Of a stretch of 64,000 bases of DNA, positions 40,184 to 59,908 are shown in pieces (the stretch's first letter is position 1; the number at the start of each line of letters is the position of its first letter). Source of the DNA: Phaeocystidibacter marisrubri (GTDB taxonomy: Bacteria > Bacteroidota > Bacteroidia > Flavobacteriales > Schleiferiaceae); NCBI RefSeq assembly GCF_008933165.1, contig NZ_WBVQ01000003.1, forward strand, positions 248,001 through 312,000, in the 5' to 3' direction. The notes beneath the pieces were generated by a model. That model made no database searches. It was not told the DNA's origin and worked only from the letters and a program-made list of their open reading frames with translations. The position numbers were made by a program, and so were the translations under genes.

Positions 40184-40185
40184 AC

Positions 40186-40845: not shown

Positions 40846-40879
40846 GCTCGGTTTGTATCGTGTAAACTTATTGATTTTC

Positions 40880-40887
40880 TACCTTTG
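40880..40887 (+). promoter_or_regulatory. -7 element of the pdxJ promoter
   Basis: TACCTTTG matches TAnnTTTG exactly, 24 bases before the pdxJ ATG, within the 66-base gap to the divergent CBS gene. The -33 element is not clear. Confidence 0.55.
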
Positions 40888-40911
40888 GCACCCTTCTAAC
40901 ACAACGCCGAA

Positions 40912-41649
40912 ATGACGAATCTCAGTGTAAATATCAATAAGGTGGCCACTTTGCGAAACGCTCGCGGGGGCAATGTACCTAATGTTCTTCAAACCGCATT
41001 GGATTCTGAGCGATTCGGTGCTCAAGGGATTACTGTTCATCCTCGTCCTGATGAACGCCACATTCGCTATAGCGATGCACGTGAGTTGGCGCCAGCCGTT
41101 ACCACGGAGTTTAATATTGAAGGATATCCTGATGAAAAGTTCATCTCCCTTGTATTAGAAACGAAACCAGCACAGGTTACGTTGGTTCCCGATGGTCCCG
41201 ATGTGCTGACGAGTAATGCGGGTTGGGATACACGAGCTCACGCCGATTTCCTTCAGCCCATCATTCAGCGATTTAAAGAGGCTGGAATTCGCGTGAGTCT
41301 TTTCATTGAAACCGACGAAGATTTGATTCGCGGTGCGGCGGAGCTAGGAGCAGACCGAATTGAATTGTACACGGAGGCTTTTGCTGTAAATCACGCATCG
41401 ATGGGGGCGAATGCTGCCACACCGTATGCGAAGTCGGCGGAATTGGCCCACTCTCTGGGTTTGGGAGTAAATGCAGGTCACGATTTGAGTCTGGATAACT
41501 TGGCAGATTTTGTGGCGATGGTTCCTCATCTCGATGAAGTTTCCATTGGACATGCGTTGATTAGTGACGCACTCTATTTGGGGTTGGAGAACACGATTCA
41601 AGCGTACAGAAGACAAATTGAGTTGGGGTGGAATCGCCGCGAACATTGA
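40912..41649 (+). CDS. pdxJ: Pyridoxine 5'-phosphate synthase
   Basis: Condenses 3-amino-2-oxopropyl phosphate with deoxyxylulose phosphate to pyridoxine phosphate, making vitamin B6. The 245-residue TIM-barrel enzyme has [15 protein letters not shown]-like N-terminus ([15 protein letters not shown]), [13 protein letters not shown] with catalytic His, [17 protein letters not shown] and [16 protein letters not shown]. All blocks are intact. PLP made here serves the decarboxylase at 2-3.5 kb among others. The next gene (esterase) starts 37 bases after the stop. Confidence 0.97.
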
Positions 41650-41686
41650 TTCACTTCCATTTGTTGAATGTTCAGAAGTCACAAGC

Positions 41687-42454
41687 ATGAAGTTATTCTC
41701 AAGAATTATTGGTGAAGGTCCAGATGTACTCATCTTACACGGCCTTTTTGGAATGAATGATAACTGGAACTCATTGGGTAAACAGTGGGCCGAAGATTGC
41801 GGAATGCGTATGCACTTGTTGGATTTGCGCAACCATGGTCAGTCGCCTCATTCACCCGAACACACCTATAAGGCAATGTCTGCAGACGTGGTTGAGTATC
41901 TGGACGATCATTCGATAGATTCCGCCATCGTGATTGGTCATTCTATGGGAGGCAAGGTCGCTATGCGAATGGCAGTTGACCACCCGCAAAGAGTAGCTCG
42001 CTTGTGCGTTGTAGATATTGCCCCGAAGGGATATCCGGTGCATCATCAAGAAATTGTGGATGCTATGCGGACCCTGAATTTTGATGAGATTTCGAGTAGG
42101 AAGGATGCGGATGATACCCTGGCACTCTCCATGCCAAATCTGATGATGCGTCAGTTCTTGTTGAAGAGTTTGCATTGGGAGAGTGAAGATCGATTGGCAT
42201 GGCGCTTTAATTTGGATGCCATTGAAGCCAACTTAGAAATGGTGGGCGAAGCGATGGAGGAAAGTGCGATGTACGAGGGAACTACGCTCTTTATTCGAGG
42301 GGCTAAAAGTGGATACATCAAAGACGAGGACGAAGCACTTTTGAAAGCGCATTTTCCAAAAAGTACACTGTATACGGTTGAGGGAGCTGGGCACTGGGTT
42401 CATGCGGAGAAGCCCAAAGAAATGTACCGCGTGATTTGCGAGTTCCTGTCGTAA
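41687..42454 (+). CDS. Alpha/beta hydrolase, YbfF-type esterase
   Basis: A 255-residue cytoplasmic hydrolase. Oxyanion segment ILHGLFGMNDNWNSLG, nucleophile elbow GHSMGG (Ser near residue 87), Asp in the late helical cap region and His in EGAGHWVHAEKP form the triad. Closest pattern is the YbfF esterase/thioesterase group. The open frame reaches back to 41564 within pdxJ; the ATG at 41687 lies after the pdxJ stop and fits family N-termini (KLFSRIIGEGPDVLILHG). Substrate unknown. Confidence 0.9.
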   Translation: MKLFSRIIGEGPDVLILHGLFGMNDNWNSLGKQWAEDCGMRMHLLDLRNHGQSPHSPEHTYKAMSADVVEYLDDHSIDSAIVIGHSMGGKVAMRMAVDHPQRVARLCVVDIAPKGYPVHHQEIVDAMRTLNFDEISSRKDADDTLALSMPNLMMRQFLLKSLHWESEDRLAWRFNLDAIEANLEMVGEAMEESAMYEGTTLFIRGAKSGYIKDEDEALLKAHFPKSTLYTVEGAGHWVHAEKPKEMYRVICEFLS

Positions 42455-42459
42455 TCTGC

Positions 42460-42861
42460 TTATTCCAATCGGATGTCCATAGTGACATCTCCCGCGATTG
42501 TAAACCGCTGATCTTCTAGATCTGGTGGACCCATTGTTCCTCTGGCATTGTTGGAGAAACCGTAAATTTCAGTGGGGATACCAAACATGCCTTTGTCCAA
42601 TTCCTTGTTTTGATTTTCGTCGTGAAAACAAGCTGCGGTGTATGTCCCGCTAGGAAGATTGGAAACGGTGTATTTTACAACGCCTGAATTCGGAATAGGA
42701 ACTATGATTTCCTTCACGGGTTCGCCATTTTCATCTCTCAGCGAAAAGAGCACATCACCTTTGCGAGATTCAAGCCCACTAAAAGTGACAGTCAGACTGT
42801 GCTGAGCGGCAGCGCTCAACGATAGAAGACAAGTTAGAAGAAGGAGTGGAAGAGCTTTCAT
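42460..42861 (-). CDS. DUF2141-family exported protein
   Basis: A 133-residue protein with signal peptide (residues 1-19, ending SLSAAAQ) and a single beta-sandwich domain: LTVTFSGLESRKGDVLFSL, GTYTAACFHDENQNKELDKG and PTEIYGFSNNARG, the DUF2141 pattern. Function unknown; such proteins are periplasmic or secreted. A TTG at 42864 precedes the ATG at 42861, which overlaps the upstream gene's stop (TGATG), so it is co-transcribed with the mini sorting-domain gene. Ends 5 bases from the convergent esterase. Confidence 0.88.
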   Translation of the reverse strand: MKALPLLLLTCLLSLSAAAQHSLTVTFSGLESRKGDVLFSLRDENGEPVKEIIVPIPNSGVVKYTVSNLPSGTYTAACFHDENQNKELDKGMFGIPTEIYGFSNNARGTMGPPDLEDQRFTIAGDVTMDIRLE

Positions 42862-43262
42862 CAACGAATCAATACTACACTTCCGCGTTCGTCAATGCTC
42901 ACAATACGAGTTTGTGATGGCACTTCGTAGCGAGCCGTCAATCTCCAGAGGTAAACACCCTCTTTGAGTTTCTGACCATCGTAGTATCCGTCAAATGCTT
43001 CAGATGCATCAATCGATTCATACACTAAACGTCCCCATCTGTCGTACACACGGAGGTGGTAAGAAACAGGAGCGCAGTTTTCGGAAACGACTACAGAGAA
43101 CAAATCGTTCACTCCATCTCCGTTTGGAGTGAAGGCATTTGCAGCAAAAATAGCACAGCCGTCGTAATTGGTTCCAGGTTGTGTTTGACCCTGAACATCA
43201 GCCGACCAGAGCATGGCTACGAGTGCAAATAATCCGAATATGTACGTTCTAATAGATTTCAT
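42861..43262 (-). CDS. Mini type-B T9SS sorting-domain protein (gliding motility CTD)
   Basis: A 133-residue protein made of a signal peptide (MKSIRTYIFGLFALVAMLW) and a type-B (gliding motility-associated) C-terminal domain: FTPNGDGVNDLF, YHLRVYDRWGRLVYES and AFDGYYDGQKLKEGVYLW. No passenger domain lies between them beyond about 20 residues with a Cys. The open frame reaches back to 43304, but a TATATTTG -7 element at 43270-43277 points at the ATG at 43262. Type-B domains guide long adhesins such as SprB through the type IX system; here the domain stands alone, so it might be a fold module or decoy. Confidence 0.85.
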   Translation of the reverse strand: MKSIRTYIFGLFALVAMLWSADVQGQTQPGTNYDGCAIFAANAFTPNGDGVNDLFSVVVSENCAPVSYHLRVYDRWGRLVYESIDASEAFDGYYDGQKLKEGVYLWRLTARYEVPSQTRIVSIDERGSVVLIR

Positions 43263-43269
43263 CTCGAAA

Positions 43270-43277
43270 CAAATATA
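43270..43277 (-). promoter_or_regulatory. -7 element before the mini type-B sorting-domain gene
   Basis: Minus strand TATATTTG, exact TAnnTTTG, 7 bases before the ATG at 43262; the mRNA leader would be very short. It lies inside the longer open frame and so supports the inner start. Confidence 0.6.
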
Positions 43278-43362
43278 GGCTTTTACTTGAATAGACCTAA
43301 TCAATAATGTGTACGACCTTTCTTAAATTATTTAAATATCGTTCACAGTGAACGAACGGCAA

Positions 43363-44565
43363 CTATTCAAAGTCCAATGTAAGTTTAAATCGGAGAACTC
43401 TGCCATTACCCGCATCGCAGACATAGAGGATGTCATTGAAGTAGGCCAAACCTCTAGGTTCGTTGAACTGGTTCAAAGCAACACCACTACCTCCAAAACT
43501 CGCAATGGCGTAATTGGTTTCGCCGGATGCGGCAGGTGGAGGAACGCCTTCTAGACCGTTCGCCGTAAACTGATAAATTGAATCAGATCCAGCGTCGCTC
43601 ACAAAGATGTATCGCGATTCATCTCCAGCAACAGTAACCCCCATAGGCTCTGTAAATTTACCAGGCTCGTTTAAATAACCCGATGAAAGAGGATCAGATC
43701 CGTAAATCACAGGACTGTACTCTGCGCCAAATTCAGATTCAACAAAGGCAATTCGCTGAACTTTGAGCAGATTGTTCGGGTCGCGAGAAGTGAAGAAAAA
43801 ATCAGGACTCGTGTTTGCGCTGATCTGGGGAGCCTTTGCCAAAGTGGAAATGTCAAACGGATCCTCAAAGTAGTCGTTGTATAATCCCGAAGAGGTTTGA
43901 ACGGAAATAGGGGAGGCATACACATCGTCATTCGTGAAAAGAATCACAGCATCATCCGGACCTTGATTGGCGTTGTTTGCGCTTGGACCTTGACGAGTTA
44001 CATAGTACTGGTTGTTTCTCGTCGGGTTGTTATTATCCGCCAATACAGCAATACCGTTAAAGGTTACTTGCGCATCCGTACTAGAGAAACTGTTCTTAAA
44101 GTAGAAGGGATGAACAATAGTGTTTTGGATTCTGGCGTGATCCAAACCGTAACCGTTTGGACTCAGTTGGTCAATTCGGTAAATGGCAGAAAGGCTGTAG
44201 GGAACGCCGTTTACAATCGTGTCTTTTGTTCCGATGGCCAAGAGGTCAAATTCGCGATCCATGGTTACGAATTTCAAGCCAGGAATATAGAATCGCCCTT
44301 GCTCTACACCAGATTCATTAAGGCATACAATTTCGCTCGACATCTCATCTGCCACGTATAGAAGTTCATCAAAGCCCACGACCATACTAACGGGCTTACC
44401 AAAGTTGGTGAAGGCCGGTTGGATAGGAACGTAGGCAATGTCGCGCGTGCTGTATTCTGGAATCTCAATAAAATCGAGATCCGTTTTTTCGCCGAAATAT
44501 CCTTCACAAGAGCTAAGGCCCATGAAGAGGGCAAGTGTGCCGATATAGGATAAAGCCTTCATCAT
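43363..44565 (-). CDS. NHL-repeat lipoprotein
   Basis: A 400-residue lipoprotein. The lipobox LSSC (Cys at about residue 20) follows a short signal peptide. The mature part has NHL/six-blade propeller repeats, for example VGFDELLYVADEMSSEIVCLN, SRYIFVSDAGSDSIYQFTANG and GLAYFNDILYVCDAGNGRVLRF. Such propellers bind peptides, glycans or other proteins. It sits one base after the PorV-like gene and ends the tight part of the operon. The start is either of two adjacent ATGs (44565 or 44562). Likely on the outer membrane surface or periplasmic face; not known. Confidence 0.87.
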   Translation of the reverse strand: MMKALSYIGTLALFMGLSSCEGYFGEKTDLDFIEIPEYSTRDIAYVPIQPAFTNFGKPVSMVVGFDELLYVADEMSSEIVCLNESGVEQGRFYIPGLKFVTMDREFDLLAIGTKDTIVNGVPYSLSAIYRIDQLSPNGYGLDHARIQNTIVHPFYFKNSFSSTDAQVTFNGIAVLADNNNPTRNNQYYVTRQGPSANNANQGPDDAVILFTNDDVYASPISVQTSSGLYNDYFEDPFDISTLAKAPQISANTSPDFFFTSRDPNNLLKVQRIAFVESEFGAEYSPVIYGSDPLSSGYLNEPGKFTEPMGVTVAGDESRYIFVSDAGSDSIYQFTANGLEGVPPPAASGETNYAIASFGGSGVALNQFNEPRGLAYFNDILYVCDAGNGRVLRFKLTLDFE

Positions 44566-44566
44566 A

Positions 44567-45568
44567 TCAGAGGTCTTTGTTCAATTCGATGCGAATTCCG
44601 ACGTTTTGCTGGAATCCAAAATTGTTGGTAGGGTTTACGCTGTAATCTACATATACAGGGTGTCCACCCATTGCGTAGCGAACGCCGAAACCGAAAGTAG
44701 GCCAGCTTTGTCCTGCTACATTGATTTTATATCCCGCTCGAACGGCTAAGAGTTTTCTCCACTGATACTCTGCACCCAAGCGGTAGTTTTCCGCATTGTC
44801 ATTCGGGTGGTTGAGTTGAACGGATGTCAACAAACGGTGTTCTTTGGTTTCGTACGGCACCATGGAAACCCCAAGGCTAAACACGTTGGGAAGGGTGTTG
44901 TCTTCAAGTTGACCACTTTGAACGCGATTGTAACCCGAAGAAATGTAGGTACCTGACAAGCTGGAGTTGCCGCCAAAGTTCTGAACCAACACGGCAAATT
45001 GGAGTTCTTTCCAATCGGTGTGGTATAGGAAGCCCAAGTCAACAGCCCCTGTGTGGTTGTAGTATGGCCCTAGTTGCTCAAAGATGTACTTCAATGTAAC
45101 TCCCAACTCAAACTGCGTGCTCAACATTCGAGCATAGCTCAATCCGATGGCCATGTTATTGGCGTAAATCATGTTGCCAGTACCTCCCGGTTGGAATTCG
45201 GTACGCTCTTCAATGGCACCGCTATTCAGCATATTGAAACTCAATCCAAAGGCACTTTCGCCTCCTTCAAGCGTTTTGATGCCCGAAAGCCAGCTTTGAT
45301 GAATACCCCCTCCAATGAAATAGTGGCTCATGCTGATTCCGGTGGTTCCCAAATCTGTCATTGCTGCGGGGTTTTGATAAGCAGCATAGGCATCGCCATC
45401 AAGAGCAACAGATGCACCACCCATGGCTTGAGAACGCGGACTCATGTCGTTTTTCAAGAAGCTCAAGGCCGACAAACCAGCGCGTTCGCCACCAAAAGTG
45501 GGAAGAAGTTGTCCTTTCATTCCTGTGGAAATCAAGGCGAGTGCGGATAGGTAGATTAACTTCTTCAT
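44567..45568 (-). CDS. PorV/PorQ-family outer membrane barrel
   Basis: A 333-residue exported barrel: signal peptide to about residue 20 (ending GMKGQ), then SPRSQAMGGASVALDGDAYAAYQNPA, the N-terminal block of PorV/PorQ and FadL-like proteins, and many amphipathic strands ending GIRIELNKDL. PorV binds sorting-domain cargo at the SprA translocon in the studied type IX systems, and PorQ belongs to the attachment machinery. This copy lies three bases from a TonB receptor and one base from a lipoprotein rather than with the por genes, so it may be a specialised paralogue. Annotation as PorV itself is not justified. Confidence 0.85.
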   Translation of the reverse strand: MKKLIYLSALALISTGMKGQLLPTFGGERAGLSALSFLKNDMSPRSQAMGGASVALDGDAYAAYQNPAAMTDLGTTGISMSHYFIGGGIHQSWLSGIKTLEGGESAFGLSFNMLNSGAIEERTEFQPGGTGNMIYANNMAIGLSYARMLSTQFELGVTLKYIFEQLGPYYNHTGAVDLGFLYHTDWKELQFAVLVQNFGGNSSLSGTYISSGYNRVQSGQLEDNTLPNVFSLGVSMVPYETKEHRLLTSVQLNHPNDNAENYRLGAEYQWRKLLAVRAGYKINVAGQSWPTFGFGVRYAMGGHPVYVDYSVNPTNNFGFQQNVGIRIELNKDL

Positions 45569-45571
45569 GCC

Positions 45572-48412
45572 TTAAAATCTAAAACCAATTCCATAGAGAA
45601 CTTGACGTGGCGCCAGGTATCTGGCTGGGTTTCTTGGGTCAACTCCGGTTTCAAGCGGACCGTTGTATTGAGGTCTAGGATCTCTCCAAGTATTCGGTAC
45701 ATCGTCGCCGTACTGATAGGCTGTACCTGTAATTGGGTTAATGATCTGTGCGTTTTTCCAATCGAGGAGGTTTCGAACTTCCAAACTAAATGTGAGGCCG
45801 CTTCCCTTAGCTCTGTTGGTGAAGACGGTGTAGCTGAGTTTCATGTCGCTCGTAATCCACGGAGTTGCACTTTTTTGTAAGTATTGATCGGTGAGGATTT
45901 CGTATTCTGGTCGACCCAAATCATTAACACCCACCTGTTTTTGAGGAGTGTAACGATAGCCGCTGGAATACCCAAACTGGAAGAAGGCTTCAAATCCAGA
46001 AAGGTTGACGTTCCAAGGCTTCCAAGTACTGTCTGGGGCAAACACGATTCCGAGATTGACATTCCATGGTCGATCCCATGCCAAATACTGCTCTCTGGTC
46101 AGGGCTACTTCGCCGTTTTGTGCAATTTGAAGAGATGATTCCCGTGCGCTGTTCGATTTTCCTCGAGCCACTTGATAACTCACATTACCAAAGGTTCTAA
46201 AGTGTTTTCCAATTCGGTATTGAGCGCCTACTTCAACCCCAACTACTTTCGCGTAATCCTGGTTGATGTACATCGTTTTAGTTACCGGTCTACCTGTTTG
46301 GTCTTCTACAATTACACTTCTAGACACGATGTAGTCGAAGCGGTTATTGTTGTACGCAGCCACAGTGATGGCTAGGTTTTTATTGATGGAGGATTTGTAC
46401 CCCACTTCATAACTCACGTTGACTTCTGGGTCGAGATCAGGGTTCCCCAAGAAGCTCAAGAAAGAGCGGTCTTGATAAACGGGATCGAGGCCGGCATACA
46501 TAAAGCGTGGATGCGGTAGTCGCATGCTGTGACCATAGTTGAAGTACAATACATTGTTTGCCGTTACGGGGAAGCTCACATTGATACGCGGAAGGAGTCG
46601 AGCTTTCCAACGCATGCCGAACAATCCAAAGGTCTTGTTCTGATAGTCCTCACGAACCTGATCAATAACTGGAGCATTCGGATTATTTACCGCATCGTCT
46701 GCAAATTTTCCAGGTGCCCAGAAGTTCATCCTCAACCCGATGGAAGCGATGATTCCTTTGTATGTAATTTTATCTTCTACGAAGAGTCCGCCTCGCACTG
46801 GGTTCACTTTCCAGATGTCGTTGCTAGAACCGATGGAGATAGAAGGGCTGGTGAGCGTGTCATTAATGACGATGGGAGCACCGACCCATGGACGTGTAAC
46901 ATCCACCCATTGGTATTCGTTAAACACAGTTTCAAGACCCATGCTCACACGGTGGACTTCACTTTCGGGAATCCAATTGGCCTTGGCTCTCAAAGTGTAT
47001 TCTTCGGCGTAGTGGTCGTGCCAAGTGGAAGAGATACCGCCGTTGTTCACTAAGCCATTGCCCGGACGAACGTAATAGATTCCAGATGGATCACCGGGGT
47101 TGAATACGTCAACAGGATAAGTGATGATGTTGTCTTCATCCAAAATTTGATCAACCGTCGCTGTTCGGAAAGGTCTTCCATTGGCATCCGCTCTCAGGTT
47201 GGTAAACAATCTACCCAAGCTTACATTCAAACCCCATTGCTTAGAGAGCAATTGGTTGAGGTTGATGGCGGTCAAGTTGCTGTGATGGGTGTAGGTCGTT
47301 GCGTTGTCGAGGTTGTTGCTTCGGTTGTATTGATAACCTGGGGTTAGAATCGCGTCGAATCCCACTACTTGAAGCGTTCTCGTATTCTGGTTGATGTTTA
47401 GCGAGTGCTGGTTGGTGAAGGTGATTTTCGTACCCGGACGAACCTTCCACGCCAATTTGATCGTATTGGTCCAAGAATTGGTTTGGCGAGGTGCCCAAGT
47501 GTCGGTATTATTGGTGAACAGTGAGGAGTGCAACTGATTCGCCTGGTTCGGGAAGTACTCGTCGGTGAGATTTACTGTACCACTTGTGAATAGGGTCAAT
47601 TTTTTATTGGTGCCCGGAATGGGGAAGCCCACGTTGATTTCAGCAATGTCTGTATTGAAAGACGTAGCTGCATTCGGATCGAAAAGATGGTCGGTTTGAA
47701 CGCGACCGCTGATTTCAAACTTCTCTCCTGCTTCGCGAATCTTGGTGTTGATCACACCGGAGGATCCTCCGCCAAATTCAGCGCCTGCACCACCAGTAAT
47801 AACATCGATGGATTGGATAGAGCTGGAGCTTACATTTACCCCAAACCCGGTTCCAGCCAAGGGGTCTTGTGCGGAAATTCCATCTACAATGTATTCGGTT
47901 TCATACACACGAGCACCGCGGATTTGAAGTCCGTCTTGCGTTTTGGTCACCCCCGCTTGCATCGCTACTACTTCCTGTACATCGCGCACGTTCATCTGGT
48001 CGATGTCTTCTTTGCGGATGGTGATTTCGGAACCAGCTGTTTCTAAATCAACCTGAGCCTTTTGGCCTACAACAGTGACTGTTTGAAGGGCTTCGGTAGA
48101 AGGACTTAGTTCAATATTGAGAACCTTCTTTTCTCCGGCGGCCAATGTAACCCCGTTTATTTGCTTGGTGCCATAGCCCAAAAGTTGAACCTTTATGCTG
48201 TAGTCACCCGGAGGTACATTTTGAAAAGTATAGGCTCCACTGAATGGAGTGATTTCTCCAAAGTAAGTTCCGATGATCGTCACCCCCGCGTTGAAGAGGG
48301 GTTCACCGGTTTCCGCATCGGTAACGATACCAGAAATTTGACCTGTTTGATCTTGAGCCCAGAGGGAGGATACAAACATGGAAAAGATGAGGAGTAGCGT
48401 AGTTTTTCTCAT
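45572..48412 (-). CDS. TonB-dependent outer membrane receptor with carboxypeptidase-like domain
   Basis: About 946 residues. Signal peptide (ending SSLWAQ) is followed by a CarboxypepD-reg-like domain (GQISGIVTDAETGEPLFNAG, about 25-110), the plug with GLQIRGARVYETEYIVDG and GGSSGVINTKIREAGEKF, and a 22-strand barrel ending in VLYGIGFRF. It imports a ligand with energy from TonB. No SusD lipoprotein partner is present. TTG at 48421 precedes the ATG at 48412, which is chosen; it overlaps the lipoprotein gene end by a few bases upstream. Ligand unknown. Confidence 0.93.
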   Translation of the reverse strand: MRKTTLLLIFSMFVSSLWAQDQTGQISGIVTDAETGEPLFNAGVTIIGTYFGEITPFSGAYTFQNVPPGDYSIKVQLLGYGTKQINGVTLAAGEKKVLNIELSPSTEALQTVTVVGQKAQVDLETAGSEITIRKEDIDQMNVRDVQEVVAMQAGVTKTQDGLQIRGARVYETEYIVDGISAQDPLAGTGFGVNVSSSSIQSIDVITGGAGAEFGGGSSGVINTKIREAGEKFEISGRVQTDHLFDPNAATSFNTDIAEINVGFPIPGTNKKLTLFTSGTVNLTDEYFPNQANQLHSSLFTNNTDTWAPRQTNSWTNTIKLAWKVRPGTKITFTNQHSLNINQNTRTLQVVGFDAILTPGYQYNRSNNLDNATTYTHHSNLTAINLNQLLSKQWGLNVSLGRLFTNLRADANGRPFRTATVDQILDEDNIITYPVDVFNPGDPSGIYYVRPGNGLVNNGGISSTWHDHYAEEYTLRAKANWIPESEVHRVSMGLETVFNEYQWVDVTRPWVGAPIVINDTLTSPSISIGSSNDIWKVNPVRGGLFVEDKITYKGIIASIGLRMNFWAPGKFADDAVNNPNAPVIDQVREDYQNKTFGLFGMRWKARLLPRINVSFPVTANNVLYFNYGHSMRLPHPRFMYAGLDPVYQDRSFLSFLGNPDLDPEVNVSYEVGYKSSINKNLAITVAAYNNNRFDYIVSRSVIVEDQTGRPVTKTMYINQDYAKVVGVEVGAQYRIGKHFRTFGNVSYQVARGKSNSARESSLQIAQNGEVALTREQYLAWDRPWNVNLGIVFAPDSTWKPWNVNLSGFEAFFQFGYSSGYRYTPQKQVGVNDLGRPEYEILTDQYLQKSATPWITSDMKLSYTVFTNRAKGSGLTFSLEVRNLLDWKNAQIINPITGTAYQYGDDVPNTWRDPRPQYNGPLETGVDPRNPARYLAPRQVLYGIGFRF

Positions 48413-48414
48413 GC

Positions 48415-49860
48415 TTACCAATCAAAGTCGTTAGTCAGAATCTGGTTGAGGATGTCTTCCAGCATCTGTGGATTTTTGTTGAATCTCCACAACTCCATAG
48501 AGAAGAGGACTTCAGATATGTTTCCTTGGTATCGTCTTCGAGCACCCACAAGGTTGTCGCCCGACCAACCGCTAAGTGGCGTCAACTCGGTGCGATAAAA
48601 GTTTTCAGCATCCGCTGATTTGACTATAGGAGTAATTCCCACTAACACATTGCTCGATTGGAGTAGCGGGTAGCTGGCGGAATCTATCACTGGATAAGTG
48701 ACGCTGTCGGGATAAATTCGAACGAGACCAGGGCTGGTTACCACGTCAGTCATGGGGTACGTTCCAGTAATTCCAGACAAATCAGATAGGGTTCCGAAAG
48801 AAGTTGTGACCAACACTTTTTTACCTGAATTGGTAAACTCTTGAACTGCAGATCCCATCAGTGCTAGAAGTGCACCTGTTTGACCTGTTGCTTGGTTTTG
48901 GAAAACCTGTGCATCAGAGTGGATGAAAAGTCGGTCGTATTGTTGAAGAAGGAGGTTGACAGTAGGTGACCAGAATGCGGGTTGATTCACTCCACCGTTC
49001 GTTCCATAATCTAGATAGTCGTAAGTAATGCCGCTGTTGTTTAAGGCGGTTTGATAGGTAGTAGCAACTGAAGCGCTTTGTCCGTTTACTACCAATAGGT
49101 CGGAAGTAGGCAACACGAGCGTTACGGCAAGTGCGGTATCTACTTCGGAATAACTATTTGCAATGTCTTTTGTGCGTAGGTAAAGCACGTTTGATCCTCC
49201 CGCTTCTAAACCGTCTATGGTTGTAGTTTGAGGAGTAGAGTTGTTGGCGTAGTATACGCTAGCGGTGGTCGGACCGCTGGGAATGTTGGGATCAATTACA
49301 AAGGAGATGAGGTTCTGATTTACCGGAACTTCATACCACGAGCCATTGTTGAATTTAATCTCCGCCATGGTGATCGACTCGTTTCCGTCTTGATCGGTTG
49401 AAGTCCATCGGTAAGTAGCCACACCAATCGACGTTCCCGTAGTCTGAGTGGTGGTTTCGATTTTAGCTACTGGTGGCGTGTTTTTTAGGGGGATTTTCAA
49501 ATAGGCAGGCGTAGGATCAACAGCGTCGTTGTTGTCAATGGCACGAACATATAGATCAACGTCTACTGAATCCTGTCCTGCAGGAATATCAAATTGAAAG
49601 GTACTGTCTTGGGAGGTTGTAAACACCCAAGTAGTGTTGTCCGAACTGATTTCATAGCCCTTGATGTAGCCATCTTTATCGGTCCCGTACCAACTAAGCG
49701 TAACCTCACTGTTCAGGCGGTCTTCGCCTGTCAGGTTGATTTCATCAATGCTTATTCGGGTTTGCGGTAATGCGTTACCAACGGGTGTTCCTTTGTCGCA
49801 TCCGCTTGTCAAAGCGACGCCTAAAGAAAGGGTCAGGAGAAGTTGTAGGTATGATCTCAT
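48415..49860 (-). CDS. Lipoprotein with Ig-like domains, unknown function
   Basis: A 481-residue lipoprotein; the lipobox is LTSGC with Cys near residue 21. Two Ig/fibronectin-like beta domains follow at about 35-125 (VTLSWYGTDKDGYIKGYEIS) and 130-215 (YRWTSTDQDGNESITMAEI). The C-terminal half (about 255-481) has a mixed alpha/beta fold with SDLLVVNG and TNSGKKVLVTTSFG that recalls a glutamine amidotransferase-like or ThuA-like fold, not shown by motifs. Followed by the TonB receptor, it may be its surface-exposed partner in place of SusD. Confidence 0.75.
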   Translation of the reverse strand: MRSYLQLLLTLSLGVALTSGCDKGTPVGNALPQTRISIDEINLTGEDRLNSEVTLSWYGTDKDGYIKGYEISSDNTTWVFTTSQDSTFQFDIPAGQDSVDVDLYVRAIDNNDAVDPTPAYLKIPLKNTPPVAKIETTTQTTGTSIGVATYRWTSTDQDGNESITMAEIKFNNGSWYEVPVNQNLISFVIDPNIPSGPTTASVYYANNSTPQTTTIDGLEAGGSNVLYLRTKDIANSYSEVDTALAVTLVLPTSDLLVVNGQSASVATTYQTALNNSGITYDYLDYGTNGGVNQPAFWSPTVNLLLQQYDRLFIHSDAQVFQNQATGQTGALLALMGSAVQEFTNSGKKVLVTTSFGTLSDLSGITGTYPMTDVVTSPGLVRIYPDSVTYPVIDSASYPLLQSSNVLVGITPIVKSADAENFYRTELTPLSGWSGDNLVGARRRYQGNISEVLFSMELWRFNKNPQMLEDILNQILTNDFDW

Positions 49861-49878
49861 CGAACTGAAATCGTAAAA

Positions 49879-49912
49879 ATGCTAGACGGCATCAGGAGAC
49901 ACCGTCTAGCAT
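49879..49912 (-). terminator. Hairpin between the secreted and membrane genes, terminator or attenuator
   Basis: ATGCTAGACGG (49879-49889) pairs with CCGTCTAGCAT (49902-49912), a perfect 11-bp stem. Read on the minus strand it is followed by TTTTTA, so it can stop part of the transcripts from the T9SS genes before the lipoprotein-receptor genes. Confidence 0.8.
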
Positions 49913-49919
49913 TGATGAT

Positions 49920-52145
49920 TTATTGGCTAATGATAACTCTCGCAGTGTGTACGTTTCCTTTAGAATCGTTCACGCGAAGGATGTACGCACCGGCACGGAG
50001 TCCGCTCAAGTTGAGTTCAACACGAGCTTCCGTTGCAGTGTGGTTCAATACAGCTCTTCCCGAAAGATCGTATAGTGAAACACCAGTAATGTTGCCACCT
50101 TCCAATTCAATGGTCATGCGGTCTGTTGCTGGGTTCGGGTAAGCAACTACCTGAGCAGTGCTGTTCCATTCTTCAACAGAAATTGTAGACTGAGGAAGAT
50201 TGGTTGTGTCAAGGGTTACGTTCAATCCAATGAAGTCGTCGTTGTTACGTGGCAACAAGCGGTAGTTGGAGAATCCGTAGAACAAGATACCGCGAACCGC
50301 ATCCATGCTCATGGTGTCCGAAACTTCAATTGGACCTACTTCCATCTCACCGTCAACGGTAGCGTAAGATGAATCGGTTACCAATTGAACGTATAATGAA
50401 GATTGTGAAGAGCTACTTTGGCGACCAGCCAAGATTCTACCTGAGCGTGCGTCGGAGTTTCCAACTACGTCCGATACGTTGTAGTCACCAAATCCTTGGT
50501 TCTCGTTGTTGATGTACAACTTGGCGTTGTTTGGCATACGGTATTCTACCAAAACACTTTCGTATTTCTCCCAACCGAAGTTTGCTTTTGCAGTACTGTC
50601 AGTAGGATCGATCACAACCGGTTGAATAACCGCTCGGTTTCCAGTGTGTTGGATGTTAGAAACGACAACTTGAGTCATTCCGAAGCTCTCTTGAACTTGA
50701 CCCGTTACCAAAACTTCTTCTTCGCGGAAGTAGTTGGTGATTCCGGCGCCAACACACCAAACACCACTCCATTCTGTACCACCTTCGTCTTGTACGTAGA
50801 GGTAACCGAGGTCGTGCTGCTTGGTAGATGCGGTTACAATTCCTATGAAAGTAACTGTTTGGCCTACCAATGGAGAGTTTCCGCTACCGTCCAAAGAGAA
50901 CTGGATATCGAAAATTTTAAGTCCACCGTCGCGTACAAAGTAGTATTCGAAGTTTGGTTCGCTGGCTCCAACTGGAGTAGTAGGGTAGTATGAATCGTTT
51001 CCTTGGTCGTCTGTAGCCTTGATGTAGTAGCGTACAAGTGTGCCGTCGGCATACTTAGGAAGGGTGAATTCAAATTCATCTGTAGTGCCGCTCACCAAGT
51101 TCAATGCATAACCAGGGAACTGTGATGCATCCAACGTGCTGTCTGAAGTATAGTATACGATGGCTGTATCCACTGTACCGTCAAAGTCAGAGATGTTCAT
51201 GGTCAAGTCCACCGTCTGGTTGCTAGTTGGGATTGCTGGATCGCGATCGAAGTTGCTGATATACGGTGGAGCGTAGCCTACCACGTAGTGACTAGCATCA
51301 AATGGATTCAATTCGTAACCACGGGTTCCACTGTTTACGAAACAGCCGTTGGCATCGTGACGAACCATTCCCTTCAAGCTAGTGTAGAAAGTTCCAGGAA
51401 CCGGTGGGTTGAAAGAACCAGTAGCTTGTGGAGAATAAGGGTTAACCGTTTGGTGGCTAGGTAACTTTTGCGCTAGGAAGCGATCAGATACGTTGATGGT
51501 ATTGCCGTTTCCGTCCACTACGTTAAAGCTCACGCGACTGTTTCCGCTGAAATAGATGACGCTAGTTACGGTTACGTTTTGAAGCTCGACGAATGAATTC
51601 TCCCATTGCTCACCTGAAGTAGGTATGTTCACTTGGTTCGCATCGTTCAAGTCGCCCAAAGGCACTGTGGCGTAGGTAGGAGCTGTAGTAGAACCCATAA
51701 TGCTAAATGAGTTACCGTCAATCGGCTCTAGCTGAGTTCCGTTGTTGTAAGCGTTAACCACACCAATAAACTCGATGATATCACCTGGAAGTGCCGTCTC
51801 GATGTTCGGAAGTGGAAGCAAGTTACCCTGAGCGTTTTGATACGCACCCATAACTTCAATTCCTTTCCAAGGTCCAGAGTTTCCGCCGTTGGCTGTATCT
51901 GCAATGAACAAGAATGGACGGTGACCGCCTTGAACCGAACCCGAAGGAACTTCGGAAACGTTTCCCGGAGTAACTACAACGCCCCATGTGCGAACCGTGT
52001 CGCCAAAGTACGCGCTAGTGTCGTTACAGTTTGCTAAGTCAGTTGGACTGACGTAGTTGATTTGATTAATATCTACATAAGGGTGCTGGGCTTGCGCCGC
52101 GAAACCTCCTAGTAGAGTCATGCAAAGAAGTAATACTCTTTTCAT
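49920..52145 (-). CDS. Secreted OB-fold protein with T9SS type A sorting domain
   Basis: A 741-residue exoprotein with signal peptide (ending AAQAQ near 19). Two OB-fold-like regions are seen: about 35-190 (TVRTWGVVVTPGNV, FIADTANGGNSGPWKGIEV, GDIIEFIGVVNAYNNG) and about 405-510 (GQTVTFIGIVTASTK, YLYVQDEGGTEWSGVW). These resemble the nucleic-acid-binding OB domains of extracellular nucleases such as YhcR/NucH. A region with NQTVDLTMNISDFDGTVD looks Ig-like. The type A sorting domain starts about 665 (YPNPATDRMTIELE, ending ARVIISQ). No nuclease motif was seen in this gene. Confidence 0.82.
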   Translation of the reverse strand: MKRVLLLCMTLLGGFAAQAQHPYVDINQINYVSPTDLANCNDTSAYFGDTVRTWGVVVTPGNVSEVPSGSVQGGHRPFLFIADTANGGNSGPWKGIEVMGAYQNAQGNLLPLPNIETALPGDIIEFIGVVNAYNNGTQLEPIDGNSFSIMGSTTAPTYATVPLGDLNDANQVNIPTSGEQWENSFVELQNVTVTSVIYFSGNSRVSFNVVDGNGNTINVSDRFLAQKLPSHQTVNPYSPQATGSFNPPVPGTFYTSLKGMVRHDANGCFVNSGTRGYELNPFDASHYVVGYAPPYISNFDRDPAIPTSNQTVDLTMNISDFDGTVDTAIVYYTSDSTLDASQFPGYALNLVSGTTDEFEFTLPKYADGTLVRYYIKATDDQGNDSYYPTTPVGASEPNFEYYFVRDGGLKIFDIQFSLDGSGNSPLVGQTVTFIGIVTASTKQHDLGYLYVQDEGGTEWSGVWCVGAGITNYFREEEVLVTGQVQESFGMTQVVVSNIQHTGNRAVIQPVVIDPTDSTAKANFGWEKYESVLVEYRMPNNAKLYINNENQGFGDYNVSDVVGNSDARSGRILAGRQSSSSQSSLYVQLVTDSSYATVDGEMEVGPIEVSDTMSMDAVRGILFYGFSNYRLLPRNNDDFIGLNVTLDTTNLPQSTISVEEWNSTAQVVAYPNPATDRMTIELEGGNITGVSLYDLSGRAVLNHTATEARVELNLSGLRAGAYILRVNDSKGNVHTARVIISQ

Positions 52146-52178
52146 GTGTAAAAAGGAATTGATGATGAAGTGTTTGCC

Positions 52179-54350
52179 TTATTTAATGATCACGAATTGG
52201 CCGTTAAAAGCTTCTCCGGTTTCTAAATCCTCAACTGAAAACATGTACAAACCGCGACTAATGATTTGTGAATCGCGGGAGAGAAGATCCCATGCGTGTT
52301 CCCCGCCGGAGAATACGTTTTCATCGGAGTTCTCAGAGCCAAAAGTTTCAAACCAACGGATGTCGTTTCCGCTGTAATTTTCATCGTGACGAATTTCGTC
52401 AATGAAGTCGCCAGCCGAAGTGTAAATGCGAATCACGCATCTACGAGGAAGGTTGGCGAATATTAGTTTTCTACTTTCTTCTTGGAAGCTGGATCGGCCT
52501 TCCCAAGAGGAACCTGCGTAGTAAGGGTTTGGATAAACGAAGGGCTCGTTTTTGTCCATGTCTTCGTTTGGTGTAGTTCCCGCAAATGCGCGGAAATCGT
52601 TGGCCAAGAAGCTGGATTCGAGTGATTCCAAATTGCTCTCTGGATTGCCCTCGTCAAATGCCGTAACGGCTACCGCATTCTGCCATCCGTTCTGTACGTT
52701 TTCTATGGTATATAGATAGTAGTAGGTGGTGGTATCTCCTTCAAACGTTACAGGTTCATCGAGTCGAACGGCATCAAATCCCGTTTCGTAGAAAAGGTCA
52801 TTCCCAGCTTTGTCGTATTGAGAGATTAACACAAAATCACGAGCCAAATCGGGAGTTCCTGTAACGTCAAAGCCCAATCTTGATAAGTAGATTTTGTATC
52901 CTTCAAAGTCAATCTTCTGAGTGATGGGGTCCACCGAGGTTTCGGAGTTATCGGACCAGTAGATGTCGATTTTATTTTCGCTAGGAACCACCTTCGTGCG
53001 TGGAGTTTCAGGTGGGGAAGGAAGGATGAAACGCGTGATTTCACCATTGCCATCACGGTCTTCACCATCGTCCAGAATTCCGTTGAAGTTTACATCCTCA
53101 CCGTTGTAAGCGGTTTGTGCCCAATCGGCATTGTTCACCAAAATCTCCTTTTGCTCAGGCGTGTTGCTGGCATTCGGGTTTCCGTCATTCTTCTTCGGAG
53201 CCAATACAAAGGCAAAGGAAACACGGATTTCATCACCCGGTTCAAAACGGCGGAAAGGTCCTACTGAAAGGAGGTCGGAGCGATTGCCTGAACTGCTCAA
53301 CATATCTTGGATGTCAATTCCAGCGCCTTGCTGACAAGCAGCTCCCGATGGATCGTCCCAACATGGATTCTCATTGAGGCCGTCACCCATTTTTTGATAG
53401 CGCTGATTGTCGTCTTGCGGGAAGTAAAAAAGAGCTTGAGAAGAGTTGTTAAACACCCATGCATTGTAGTGCACTTTGTTGTCGGTGTCCAATTCCATCT
53501 GGCCTGTTACACTGTTGTACGAGGAATCGATGTTAGGATGGTGGAAGCCGTATTTGTCTTCTGCACCTAAGAATTTTTGGGCGATATAACTATCGGTAAA
53601 ACCTTCGTCTCCCGTTGCGTCATAACAGTAAGCCATATTCAAACTGTCTATGTACCCATTGCCCCCTTGCGAATAGAACGTAGATCCTCCAGATCCTGCC
53701 GGGGTGATGTTGATGTTTCGGACAACGGTGTTGGCCCAAAGTGCCAAGTAGGTATCGTCGTAGTAATTCTGGCTGTTGTTGGTGAAAACCAAGTTGACAA
53801 TCACAAAGAAATCGCTGAAGCGGTAATTCCAGTTGTAGGTTTCCATTCGAACCGAAACACCCATGGGGTTGATGTGATTTTGAATGGGAATGTTCGTTCC
53901 AGGAACAGTGATCTCATTGTCGGAGAACTCCGAAATGTAGTCTTGGTGAGAGACGGCTTGTGGTGTGTAGTTCGGGTTGTCCAAGAGGGTGGAACGCACT
54001 TCTAAGGCACTTCCGGGTTGAGCTGTAAATTCGAAACCAGCTCTACCAGCAGCATACCCTTGCGGAGCATCGTAAGCGGAGGTTGAAACGCGAACGTTGC
54101 CGCCGTTTTCCAATCCGCCAATCCAGATGCCTGACTCAAATAGGTGCTCAATCCCCGATCCCGCCGGATATTCACAAGAAGGATCTCCACTTCCGTCGCG
54201 GTATCCTCTAAATGCATTGCCGAAGGTTCCCAAATTGGTCACGGTAAGGCGAACATTACTTGCCGTAGTTTGCTTCTCATCAAAACTGGTTTGCGCTACC
54301 GCCGATGTGGTGAGTAGTGCAGAGAATATGAGGAGTAATCGGTTTGTCAT
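52179..54350 (-). CDS. Large secreted protein of unknown function with PNPY-type C-terminal domain
   Basis: A 723-residue exported protein (signal peptide 1-19, ending TSAVAQ). I do not recognise the 430-residue N-terminal part (GTFGNAFRGYRDGSGDPSCEY onward; aromatic-rich strands, IEHLFESGIWIGGLENGGNV). A fibronectin-III-like domain follows (KIDIYWSDNSETS to VTAFDEGN). The C-terminus starts FVYPNPYYAGSSWEG and has LIFANLPRRCVIRIYTSAGD then W..DLLSRDSQIISRGLYMFSVE, a FlgD/Ig-like C-terminal domain seen in Ignavibacteria-type exoproteins rather than the usual type A. One base downstream of the nuclease-like gene. Confidence 0.8.
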   Translation of the reverse strand: MTNRLLLIFSALLTTSAVAQTSFDEKQTTASNVRLTVTNLGTFGNAFRGYRDGSGDPSCEYPAGSGIEHLFESGIWIGGLENGGNVRVSTSAYDAPQGYAAGRAGFEFTAQPGSALEVRSTLLDNPNYTPQAVSHQDYISEFSDNEITVPGTNIPIQNHINPMGVSVRMETYNWNYRFSDFFVIVNLVFTNNSQNYYDDTYLALWANTVVRNINITPAGSGGSTFYSQGGNGYIDSLNMAYCYDATGDEGFTDSYIAQKFLGAEDKYGFHHPNIDSSYNSVTGQMELDTDNKVHYNAWVFNNSSQALFYFPQDDNQRYQKMGDGLNENPCWDDPSGAACQQGAGIDIQDMLSSSGNRSDLLSVGPFRRFEPGDEIRVSFAFVLAPKKNDGNPNASNTPEQKEILVNNADWAQTAYNGEDVNFNGILDDGEDRDGNGEITRFILPSPPETPRTKVVPSENKIDIYWSDNSETSVDPITQKIDFEGYKIYLSRLGFDVTGTPDLARDFVLISQYDKAGNDLFYETGFDAVRLDEPVTFEGDTTTYYYLYTIENVQNGWQNAVAVTAFDEGNPESNLESLESSFLANDFRAFAGTTPNEDMDKNEPFVYPNPYYAGSSWEGRSSFQEESRKLIFANLPRRCVIRIYTSAGDFIDEIRHDENYSGNDIRWFETFGSENSDENVFSGGEHAWDLLSRDSQIISRGLYMFSVEDLETGEAFNGQFVIIK

Positions 54351-54351
54351 C

Positions 54352-55659
54352 TTAGCGAATCATGAATTTGGCGTGAACGAGCTCGCCGTTGTTTCTCGTT
54401 AAGCGGGCTACATAAACTCCAGCTCTTGCACGAGAAAGGGTAATAACTTCAGCGTTTCCATCTGGAATAGACGTATGAATGCATCTACCGTGGAGGTCTG
54501 TAATTTCTATGGATCGGATGTCGCTTACGTTCAATGGCCATTCGATGCGAACAGTATTGGGAGTAAGCTGACTAATGCGAACAGCGGTTTCGTGAAGTGG
54601 TGCTTCACGCAAGCCAATGTTTTTCTTTTCTACGTCAAACTCTAGGGTGACAGGAAGGTGATCCGACATCCCGTGAAGGGCGGTGAGAACATTGCTCGGG
54701 ACACTTAAGTTGGAGTTGTCAGTGATATCTTGGTTGAGGTGAAGACCGTCGTTGCCAATTACGGTGAAGGTACCATTGGTCATTTCAATACCCTCTGCGC
54801 CATTTAAGATTTCGTCACTCACCAAGATGTGATCGTATCGATCGTCCAAACCACCACCAGAGAAGCAACCGCTATTGGTATTAGAAAGACGAGTGCTTTG
54901 GGTGTGAATGTATCGAACGCCATAGTTGTTATACCATGTTCCGGTTTCATTCATGGGATCGTAAAGACGAACACCTGCTACAGAGTAATTGATGAAATGT
55001 TGGAAAGCTGCATCGCTTCCCGCATTCATGTTGAGGTCGCCACAAAGGATGACGTTGTCGTCAACCACTGAGCTTTGAATGTACTGCATGGTCGCTAGAG
55101 CCGCAGCGGTTCGTTGGTTTTGGTCGGAAGTGGTTGATCCAGCTTTGAGGTGAACGCCAACAACCGTGAAGAATACGGTGTCCGGATCATTACTCAATAA
55201 TGAGTCCTTGTAATAGAATCGGTAGAAGTCGATCACACGGGCTAAACTGTTGTTGCTCGCATCTTGTGTAATGTGTGATTGCGACTTTAGTCCGACGTAT
55301 CGAGTATCGTAAAACGCGGCATTTACTATGTTGGAGAAGCCGTTATTCGTGTATGCCGCTTTGGCCCAGTATTGTGTTGAGCCAGTGTTTAGGGCGTTTG
55401 TTAAAATTCGGTCAGCCGGAACTCCAGACTGTGCGCCAACTTCCTGACAAACCAGAATGTGAGGCTCAACGTGATTGACGATGGTGTGGAGATAGGTATC
55501 TTTCTGACTGCTAGAGTTATTCGACCCATCACAGTAGGAAGTTGTATTCCTGTAATTGAGAAGATTATAGGTCATAATCTTCAAACGCTCCGAATTCTGA
55601 GCGGTGGCGGCGAGATTGAAACCACAAACCAAAAGAAAGAGTCCGTAGACTTTCTTCAT
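54352..55659 (-). CDS. Secreted endonuclease/exonuclease/phosphatase with T9SS sorting domain
   Basis: A 435-residue exoenzyme. After a signal peptide (ending ATAQ near 20) the EEP core has ERLKIMTYNLLNYRN, HILVCQEVG with the metal-binding Glu, GDLNMNAGSD with catalytic Asp-x-Asn, DRYDHILVSD and MSDHLPVTLEFD with the catalytic His. A type A-like sorting domain ends the protein (about 360-435, ending LVHAKFMIR). Substrate is DNA/RNA, phospholipids or phosphoesters; with an OB-fold partner nearby, nuclease is likely. First gene of the operon, promoter at 55727-55757. Confidence 0.93.
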   Translation of the reverse strand: MKKVYGLFLLVCGFNLAATAQNSERLKIMTYNLLNYRNTTSYCDGSNNSSSQKDTYLHTIVNHVEPHILVCQEVGAQSGVPADRILTNALNTGSTQYWAKAAYTNNGFSNIVNAAFYDTRYVGLKSQSHITQDASNNSLARVIDFYRFYYKDSLLSNDPDTVFFTVVGVHLKAGSTTSDQNQRTAAALATMQYIQSSVVDDNVILCGDLNMNAGSDAAFQHFINYSVAGVRLYDPMNETGTWYNNYGVRYIHTQSTRLSNTNSGCFSGGGLDDRYDHILVSDEILNGAEGIEMTNGTFTVIGNDGLHLNQDITDNSNLSVPSNVLTALHGMSDHLPVTLEFDVEKKNIGLREAPLHETAVRISQLTPNTVRIEWPLNVSDIRSIEITDLHGRCIHTSIPDGNAEVITLSRARAGVYVARLTRNNGELVHAKFMIR

Positions 55660-55726
55660 GCCATGCTTGCATTTGCCACTTCGAACTTGAAAATCAGTAC
55701 GATTCTAGGCCCTCGTCAAAGGAGGA

Positions 55727-55757
55727 CAAAGGTAGTGCGAGTTGAGGTAAGCAACAA
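55727..55757 (-). promoter_or_regulatory. Promoter of the secreted-nuclease/TonB operon
   Basis: Minus strand: TTG (55755-55757), 20 bases, TACCTTTG (55727-55734), close to TTTG-N19-21-TAnnTTTG. The leader to the ATG at 55659 is about 60 bases. Confidence 0.75.
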
Positions 55758-55763
55758 GTTTAT

Positions 55764-55791
55764 GTGTTATGGCAAGTTTAAATCATAACAC
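55764..55791. promoter_or_regulatory. Palindrome just upstream of the nuclease-operon promoter
   Basis: GTGTTATG (55764-55771) and CATAACAC (55784-55791) form an 8-base inverted repeat with a 12-base spacer, starting 7 bases before the -33 box. No T tract follows, so an operator for a dimeric regulator is more likely than a terminator of the AsmA gene. Confidence 0.55.
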
Positions 55792-55899
55792 GTGCCCGCA
55801 ATGCCCCATGAACAGTGGAAATGCTATGAATGCCGAACATTTCTGTAGGTTGTTTCTGACCTTTAGCTATACATTGTGTGGAGAAAAAGTCGGCGAGAA

Positions 55900-58398: not shown

Positions 58399-58489
58399 TG
58401 GTCTCTGCTATTGTGAAATTCAATGTGAAATTACAACGTGCAAATAGTGGACCTTATGCGGAGTTGAGATATTTTTCAACGACCTCCCG

Positions 58490-59395: not shown

Positions 59396-59419
59396 TGTAT
59401 TTCGAATTATTTCAGGCGG

Positions 59420-59449
59420 CAAAAGTACATATAAGAAATGACGTGACAA
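59420..59449 (-). promoter_or_regulatory. Promoter of the pseudouridine synthase gene
   Basis: Minus strand TTG (59447-59449), 19 bases, TACTTTTG (59420-59427), a near-perfect Bacteroidota promoter, 24 bases before the ATG at 59395. Confidence 0.75.
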
Positions 59450-59477
59450 TCATTCCCTCTCTTTCATTTTCAATCAG

Positions 59478-59843: not shown

Positions 59844-59908
59844 AGTACGTGCTTTCCTTAAAAGTAGAGGAAGGCACTTGAAGACAACGGAATCTCACTG
59901 TGCTAATT

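Follow-up and report, generated by a model that had tools for sequence, protein, structure and literature searches.

A group of nine closely packed genes was analyzed in a stretch of 64,000 nt (the window) from the genome of the bacterium Phaeocystidibacter marisrubri (contig NZ_WBVQ01000003.1, positions 248,001 to 312,000; assembly of 3.35 Mb). The nine open reading frames (ORFs) occupy window positions 42460-55659 on the minus strand, and by their listed starts the gaps between neighbouring genes range from -7 to 59 nt (Table 1). An earlier note, written from the sequence, had described this arrangement as consecutive, closely spaced genes without a SusD gene. Its coordinates were correct, its gene labels agreed with Pfam and NCBIfam scans, and no SusD model matched any of the nine genes. 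Two of the proteins, P723 and IgLP, matched no Pfam or NCBIfam family. The following analyses indicate that six of the nine genes form a conserved module, which combines a TonB-dependent receptor with a barrel of the PorV family and with putative cargo of the type IX secretion system (T9SS).

Table 1. The nine genes of the locus in window coordinates, with the evidence for each assignment
Feature	Coordinates	Strand	Evidence
EEP, endonuclease/exonuclease/phosphatase-fold enzyme with type A sorting tail	54352..55659	-	Pfam/NCBIfam, active-site motifs, neighbourhood counts
P723 (723 aa), putative T9SS substrate, marker gene of the module	52179..54350	-	full-length homologs, fold, C-terminal sorting domain by hhalign
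OB741 (741 aa), exoprotein, second core gene, ExeM/NucH N-terminal part and type A sorting tail	49920..52145	-
IgLP lipoprotein (481 aa), with Ig/FN3-like domains and a class-I amidotransferase-like domain at the C-terminus	48415..49860	-	alignment, fold
TonB-dependent receptor with CarboxypepD_reg, plug, barrel and TonB-box-like stretch	45572..48421	-	Pfam/NCBIfam, alignment
PorV-like barrel, PorV/PorQ family, own clade	44567..45568	-	NCBIfam, tree
NHL lipoprotein, probable beta-propeller	43363..44565	-	Pfam NHL repeat, invariant Cys20
Type B mini-protein (147 aa), local, outside the conserved module	42861..43304	-	Pfam/NCBIfam
DUF2141 protein, local, outside the conserved module	42460..42864	-	Pfam

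P723 was searched in a single sample of 247 genomes from the phylum, and two sets of loci were examined. The first comprises 60 regions of up to 20 kb around strong P723 matches in other genomes. The second consists of 80 named loci, retained from at least 549 near and far P723 relatives, and many of these 80 loci are too short to reveal the far end of the module. The conserved module is composed of P723, OB741, IgLP, the TonB receptor, the PorV-like barrel and the NHL lipoprotein. The genes for P723, IgLP, TonB, PorV-like and NHL had the same order on one strand in 53 of the 60 loci, which is far beyond chance, and a homolog of OB741 was recognized in 54 loci, including 47 of the 53 ordered ones. 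Of the seven remaining loci, five are truncated by contig ends (L056, L063, L073, L076, L093); the arrangement is genuinely disrupted in L083 and L094. The median gaps were -4 nt for IgLP/TonB, 1 nt for TonB/PorV-like and -1 nt for PorV-like/NHL. Clustering of 1758 ORFs from the 140 loci recovered the six module families. The next largest family was present in just 16 loci, and a fixed seventh gene was therefore rejected.

The EEP enzyme did not appear in the clustering list as a separate cluster and was counted by tblastn. It directly followed NHL in 7 of the 60 sampled loci, with gaps of -4 to 84 nt, and adjoined the module in 16 of the 80 named loci, 14 times before P723 and twice after NHL. 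Thus, EEP is an optional partner. The secreted type B mini-protein consists of a type B sorting domain and, as read by eye, a signal peptide, with little else. Among the loci searched, this protein and the DUF2141 protein were found downstream of the module only in L096, the closest relative, which retains the mini-protein at 71% identity. L130 has one more type B match, but on the opposite strand and 3.5 kb before P723. The self-contained system of nine genes proposed in the earlier note thus retains its linked membrane genes, but shrinks to a conserved unit of six, with EEP optional and the last two genes local.

The occurrence of the module genes among the 247 genomes was closely similar. 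Strong P723 matches were found in 76 genomes, i.e., in 75 carriers and in G128, which contains a broken remnant. IgLP was present at E below 1e-50 in 75 genomes, with a weak paralog in a 76th (G074), NHL at E <= 1e-20 in 75, and TonB at E <= 1e-150 in 75, and the strong sets of P723, IgLP, NHL and TonB comprise the identical 75 genomes. Some module matches are split at contig breaks (e.g., G200, G219, G242). The PorV-like profile scored at least 337 bits in the same 75 genomes. This gene separates carriers less sharply because the best genome without the module reached 327 bits. The remnant in G128 (C58:15936-16541) is a P723 fragment interrupted by an in-frame stop codon. None of the other module genes has a strong match in that genome, which perhaps points to a recent loss.

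The genes stay together even where the operon has been dispersed. Family f23 includes four genomes (G168, G192, G204, G220) that have all module genes at scattered positions, with PorV-like matches among the lowest (337-370 bits). For 22 genomes, the region examined around P723 did not contain the complete downstream block, and a TonB ortholog was found in all 22 of them. In two of these it is in pieces at contig ends (G251, G266), and in three it is in place and just the barrel is missing nearby (L100, L104, L107). In six of them the TonB region was inspected (L188-L193) and has no P723, barrel or NHL gene nearby, and IgLP adjoins in L192. Because the scattered genomes keep the genes and all 22 partial-block genomes keep TonB, the linkage is one of function and not of position alone. 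Co-occurrence of the membrane genes in other genomes had been named beforehand as a check, and TonB, PorV-like and P723 orthologs indeed co-occur elsewhere. The regions of G204 and G220 were inspected among the four scattered genomes. There, only a few bases separate TonB (L181, L184) from downstream genes that by eye resemble squalene/phytoene synthase and LD-carboxypeptidase genes. Genes that by eye are ornithine aminotransferase-like lie near TonB in three regions of the scattered module (L188, L191, L193), which may be mere shared synteny.

The distribution of the module is nested within that of the T9SS. SprA, the T9SS translocon, is encoded in 190 of the 247 genomes, and it was found in 75 of 75 carriers versus 115 of the 172 others (Fisher p = 4e-11). 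Seven families (f14, f15, f17, f23, f24, f29, f35) contain carriers alongside SprA-positive non-carriers, showing that the module genes are gained or lost together. Among the matches listed, P723 carriers belong to Cryomorphaceae, Schleiferiaceae, Vicingaceae, Chitinophagales, Ignavibacteria, Rhodothermia and Balneolaceae, and further to KSB1, Neomarinimicrobiota, Eisenbacteria and Fermentibacteria, and nearly all named carriers are metagenome-assembled genomes (MAGs). In the same list the P723 of the window is closest to a Flavobacteriia MAG (L096, 81% identity), followed by Cryomorphaceae and Schleiferiaceae. A P723 tree of 31 rows largely follows the organism groups, with the exception of three Chitinophagales-like rows beside Rhodothermia and Balneolia. 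We interpret the pattern as ancient vertical inheritance accompanied by many losses. Horizontal transfer into the lineage of the window had been considered in view of the lack of another strong same-order match among the 247 genomes. It was rejected, as carriers exist in Cryomorphaceae, Schleiferiaceae and Vicingaceae and the tree places the window among them.

The barrel of the module belongs to the PorV/PorQ superfamily (NF033709, 166.2 bits, cut-off 90). It scored far below the cut-offs of the specific models, i.e., PorV (NF033710, 68.5 of 250 bits), PorQ (NF033711, 83.9 of 220 bits), PorV2 (NF052325, 36.2 of 325 bits) and BamG (NF053685, 19.5 of 250 bits). A tree of 81 PorV-family proteins, with 15 rows for PorV, 21 for PorQ, 22 for the module and 23 for barrels of the triads described below, resolved separate clades for PorV (100/99), PorQ (100/100) and the module barrels (98/96). 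The latter join the 23 triad barrels at 99/91, and the barrel of the window is on a long branch. The module barrel is thus a third clade, neither PorV nor PorQ, and the PorV/PorQ-like label of the earlier note holds for the family and not for either protein. The position outside PorV and PorQ makes a dedicated dock more likely than a general cargo carrier. True PorV and PorQ are both encoded elsewhere in the genome of the window, and PorQ is present in 69 of the 75 module genomes, so that the module was rejected as a PorQ substitute. A search of the same genome with PF03349 gave no match.

By sequence, the P723 family matched no solved structure. In the predicted structure of P723 (mean pLDDT 83), the N-terminal domain (residues ~20-444) has the beta-supersandwich fold of GH94, GH15-type and GH116 enzymes (Z 19.2, root mean square deviation (rmsd) 3.1 and 251 aligned residues against 9ju0), and the catalytic barrel of those enzymes is missing. 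It is followed by an FN3-like domain and a C-terminal domain of about 120 residues; Foldseek rows of FN3 proteins covered single domains only. Aligned by hhalign, the C-terminal domain of the P723 family matched the type A C-terminal sorting domain (CTD) of the OB741 family with a probability of 96% (E 4e-9), whereas two other P723 domains used as controls reached 0.27% and 0.15%. A T9SS CTD is thus predicted for P723. The assignment is made at the level of the family because the P723 of the window reaches no model on its own, and secretion of P723 by the T9SS is suggested only indirectly, by SprA in 75 of 75 carriers. The PorZ model was matched by 27 and the type A model by 13 of 34 family members (E <= 0.1). 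In the three module P723 proteins for which it was displayed, the PorZ match is confined to the C-terminal end of PorZ and spans at most its final 92 residues. The family CTD therefore appears to most resemble the uncleaved CTD of PorZ. According to two reports, PorZ and PorU keep their CTDs once they have been secreted, and these CTDs have an additional hairpin (PMC11285876, PMC8545088).

Among the other module proteins, the TonB receptor has the plug and barrel domains of Pfam, and a TonB-box-like stretch was present in 22 of 22 aligned rows, so that all three features expected of a TonB-dependent transporter were found. Against the SusC/RagA model TIGR04056 it scored just 46.5 bits (cut-off 368). 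The lipobox cysteine of IgLP (Cys21) is invariant in 23 rows. The fn3 model was matched by 4 of 23 family members, and adhesive-type folds were among the structural matches of IgLP. The best match of the C-terminal domain of IgLP to class-I amidotransferases had Z 14.3, rmsd 3.8 and 200 aligned residues, and it is claimed only at the level of the fold class because many structural rows were tied. In the NHL lipoprotein, Cys20 is invariant in 22 rows and the NHL repeat was found in 22 of 22, which makes a beta-propeller probable. In the OB741 family, 15 of 16 members matched the ExeM/NucH nuclease model NF033681. In the window, OB741 matches the N-terminal part of this model and EEP a later part, and the two thus resemble halves of one extracellular nuclease, with scores of 42 and 24 bits for the two chains and a cut-off of 300. 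EEP contains the active-site motifs expected of its fold.

Two further searches concerned regulation. A scan for promoters and terminators gave counts close to those of shuffled sequences and was uninformative. Rfam detected no riboswitch at window positions 40000-60000 or in 15 other loci (tRNAs only), and the idea of a vitamin or cofactor receptor, based on a riboswitch, was dropped.

Twenty further loci were examined on the basis of weak matches to P723. Most of the matching proteins have 950-1330 residues, and they share the FN3 and C-terminal parts. In 19 of the 20 loci, genes for a TonB receptor, a protein of the P723 type and a barrel resembling PorV follow one another on the same strand; L199 is one of these and has the order TonB, barrel, P723-type protein. 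Because the barrel was already known in four of the 20 loci, the count for the unseen loci is 15 of 16. The background was very low, with no PorV-like and one TonB gene among 824 genes flanking module loci. The sole exception (L212) encodes a P723-type protein of 690 aa followed by a Reg_prop (Pfam) propeller protein instead of a barrel, and no TonB gene is nearby (L212:6380-9528). The combination of T9SS cargo, a SusD-less TonB receptor and a PorV/PorQ-like barrel recognized in the earlier note is thus general, and one triad (L216) is located elsewhere in the genome of the window. Some triads lie beside enzyme genes, i.e., GH2 and glucoamylase-like genes (L215), a rhamnosidase-like gene (L209) and an M20 peptidase gene (L196). 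Genes that by eye are LacI-type regulators were seen in triad L213 and near two paralogous clusters (L177, L179). Triads beside catabolic enzymes or LacI-like regulators resemble nutrient loci, an analogy that would fit uptake. The paralogous clusters L176, L177 and L179 repeat the set in a different gene order, with a CTD protein, a small lipoprotein-like protein, an IgLP-like protein, TonB and one or two P723-like proteins. L176 and L177 also contain a PorV-like barrel, and L179 ends before that point. The small lipoprotein-like protein of L176 weakly matches DUF4382, and a DUF2961 protein is encoded there as well.

A SusD-family neighbour of the receptor was not found among the nine genes of the window, nor was a seventh constant family over the 140 loci. 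The SusD content was determined for 80 genomes with the single model PF07980. A match was missing in 31 of 46 module carriers and in 6 of 14 other members of the phylum, whereas each of 20 Bacteroidia without the module had one.

The module is probably a surface machine that captures and imports something, and the manner in which its outer parts seem to be kept at the surface of the cell is not described for uptake systems. We hypothesized that it is an energized outer-membrane uptake complex in which T9SS-secreted P723, docked on a PorV-family barrel of its own, replaces a SusD-type lipoprotein, and we give this reading about an even chance. Sec would export all module parts, and the T9SS would carry the cargo proteins P723 and OB741 across the outer membrane. 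The PorZ-like CTD of P723, left uncleaved, would then dock on the dedicated barrel, which would hold P723 beside the TonB receptor. A ligand could be captured by the supersandwich domain together with the surface lipoproteins, IgLP and the NHL propeller, and its import would be driven by TonB. OB741, and in some lineages also EEP, may process the ligand outside the cell. The genomes themselves show the gene set with its co-inheritance, the nesting in T9SS carriers, the separate barrel clade, the triads and the CTD of the family, and the frequent lack of PF07980 SusD among carriers also favours this scheme; docking, capture and import are inferences. A precedent for one barrel per cargo is given by type B CTDs with SprF (PMC12618676, PMC9143113). 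Somewhat doubtful, and put forward tentatively, is the wider proposal that the triads represent a third general uptake design of the Fibrobacterota-Chlorobiota-Bacteroidota (FCB) superphylum, in which a T9SS-secreted lid that captures the ligand sits on a PorV-family barrel of its own and is not lipid-anchored as SusD or BtuG are, and that the single-copy six-gene module is its ancestral form for a ligand needed by most hosts.

Several results weigh against docking and uptake as proposed here. The supersandwich fold of P723 (Z 15-19) is no proof of binding. The PorZ and type A matches of the P723 family, where shown, are below the curated cut-offs, and the P723 of the window matches neither model at E 0.1. 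P723 is not adjacent to the barrel in the module, as three genes lie between them, and the PorV-like orthologs score only about 10 bits above the best non-module barrel, the lowest being mostly those of the scattered genomes. The core contains no glycan enzyme. In addition, 15 of the 46 module genomes do carry a SusD recognized by the one model used, and SusCDE has been reported for Melioribacter (PMC3534657). For these last two reasons, and because a single model was used, the module is no simple SusD replacement.

Three other explanations were weighed against uptake through a docked P723. The module could be a second T9SS attachment or processing complex, similar to PorU-PorV-PorQ-PorZ, that sorts, modifies or anchors cargo, with the TonB receptor in a structural or energizing role and not as an importer. 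The family of the barrel, the PorZ-like CTD of the P723 family, the propeller-type lipoprotein and the strict nesting in SprA-positive genomes are all in line with such a complex. However, the genome also encodes true PorV and PorQ, as most module genomes do for PorQ, and a plug-bearing receptor with a TonB-box-like stretch and the catabolic neighbours of the triads fit uptake better, and we regard the complex as unlikely. A structural surface assembly for adhesion, an envelope layer or a stalk, composed of proteins with Ig/FN3, supersandwich and propeller folds and anchored by the TonB-type barrel, also appears improbable. It would agree with the single strong locus per genome across distantly related organisms, the adhesive-type folds among the IgLP matches and a core without a catabolic enzyme family, but it leaves unexplained why the TonB-box-like stretch is kept in all aligned receptors and why P723 family members lie beside hydrolases in several triads.

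The earlier note had favoured the secretion of hydrolases and the uptake of their product, perhaps nucleic acid or phosphate. This idea rests on the optional EEP and on the ExeM-like N-terminal part of OB741, and it is weakly supported. In a more specific form, a secreted nuclease/phosphatase system would import pieces of nucleic acid or phosphate. EEP with intact motifs adjoins the module in two positions in different lineages, and both the frequent ExeM/NucH matches of the OB741 family and the resemblance of OB741 and EEP to two halves of a nuclease point in this direction. Yet EEP adjoins a minority of the loci, the ExeM/NucH matches are far under the cut-off, and nothing nucleic-acid-like was seen in P723, IgLP, NHL or TonB. 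We therefore consider such a system quite unlikely.

No description of the module or the triad was found in a literature search, which left most subscription journals and preprints outside. If uptake through a docked P723 is true, it would link type IX secretion and TonB-dependent uptake, two fields so far apart, and would provide a function for those barrels of the PorV family that belong to neither PorV nor PorQ. For T9SS lineages like Ignavibacteria and Balneolia, of which some have no PF07980 SusD, it would suggest how nutrient receptors are built, and P723 and IgLP, which have no Pfam or NCBIfam family of their own, would become components of a single machine that can be put to the test. 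Should the mechanism prove wrong, a strictly inherited module that occurs in several phyla and has no described function would still be a clear gap.

A comparison with known systems revealed several partial similarities. By the tests above, the module is outside SusCD, PorV, PorQ and BamG. Its comparison to a SusCD whose partner is delivered by the T9SS states a likeness and not a membership. Like SusC/SusD (RagA/RagB), the module has a TonB receptor with CarboxypepD_reg and plug domains together with surface partners, and the paralogous triads sometimes lie beside hydrolases and apparent LacI regulators. In contrast, the 46.5 bits of its receptor fall well short of the 368 bits required by the SusC model, SusD is missing, and a partner with a T9SS CTD and a PorV-family barrel are added. 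BtuB-BtuG is a TonB receptor with a propeller surface lipoprotein. The module, too, has such a receptor, and one of its lipoproteins is probably a propeller, but several more partners are present, and the 16 stretches scanned yielded no cobalamin riboswitch. The beta-barrel assembly machinery (BAM) of Bacteroidota with BamG and BamH combines a FadL/PorV-like barrel with surface lipoproteins and is found across the FCB superphylum, and BamG and BamH are reported to be universal in Bacteroidota (PMC12578637, PMC12611786). The module also combines a PorV-like barrel with surface lipoproteins and is spread over that superphylum. However, its barrel matches BamG weakly (19.5 of 250 bits), it includes a TonB receptor and T9SS cargo, and 172 of the 247 genomes lack it. 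Type B CTD cargo with PorP/SprF shares with the module a secreted protein that has one dedicated, usually neighbouring, barrel (PMC12618676, PMC9143113); in the module, the barrel is of the PorV family, the CTD is of the type A/PorZ kind, and a TonB receptor is associated. The PorU-PorV-PorQ-PorZ complex shares its barrel family with the module, whose barrel reaches 166 bits against the family model, and the CTD of the P723 family appears most PorZ-like. Unlike that complex, the module has a barrel of its own clade, with PorV and PorQ separate in the same genome, and its unit includes a TonB receptor and lipoproteins.

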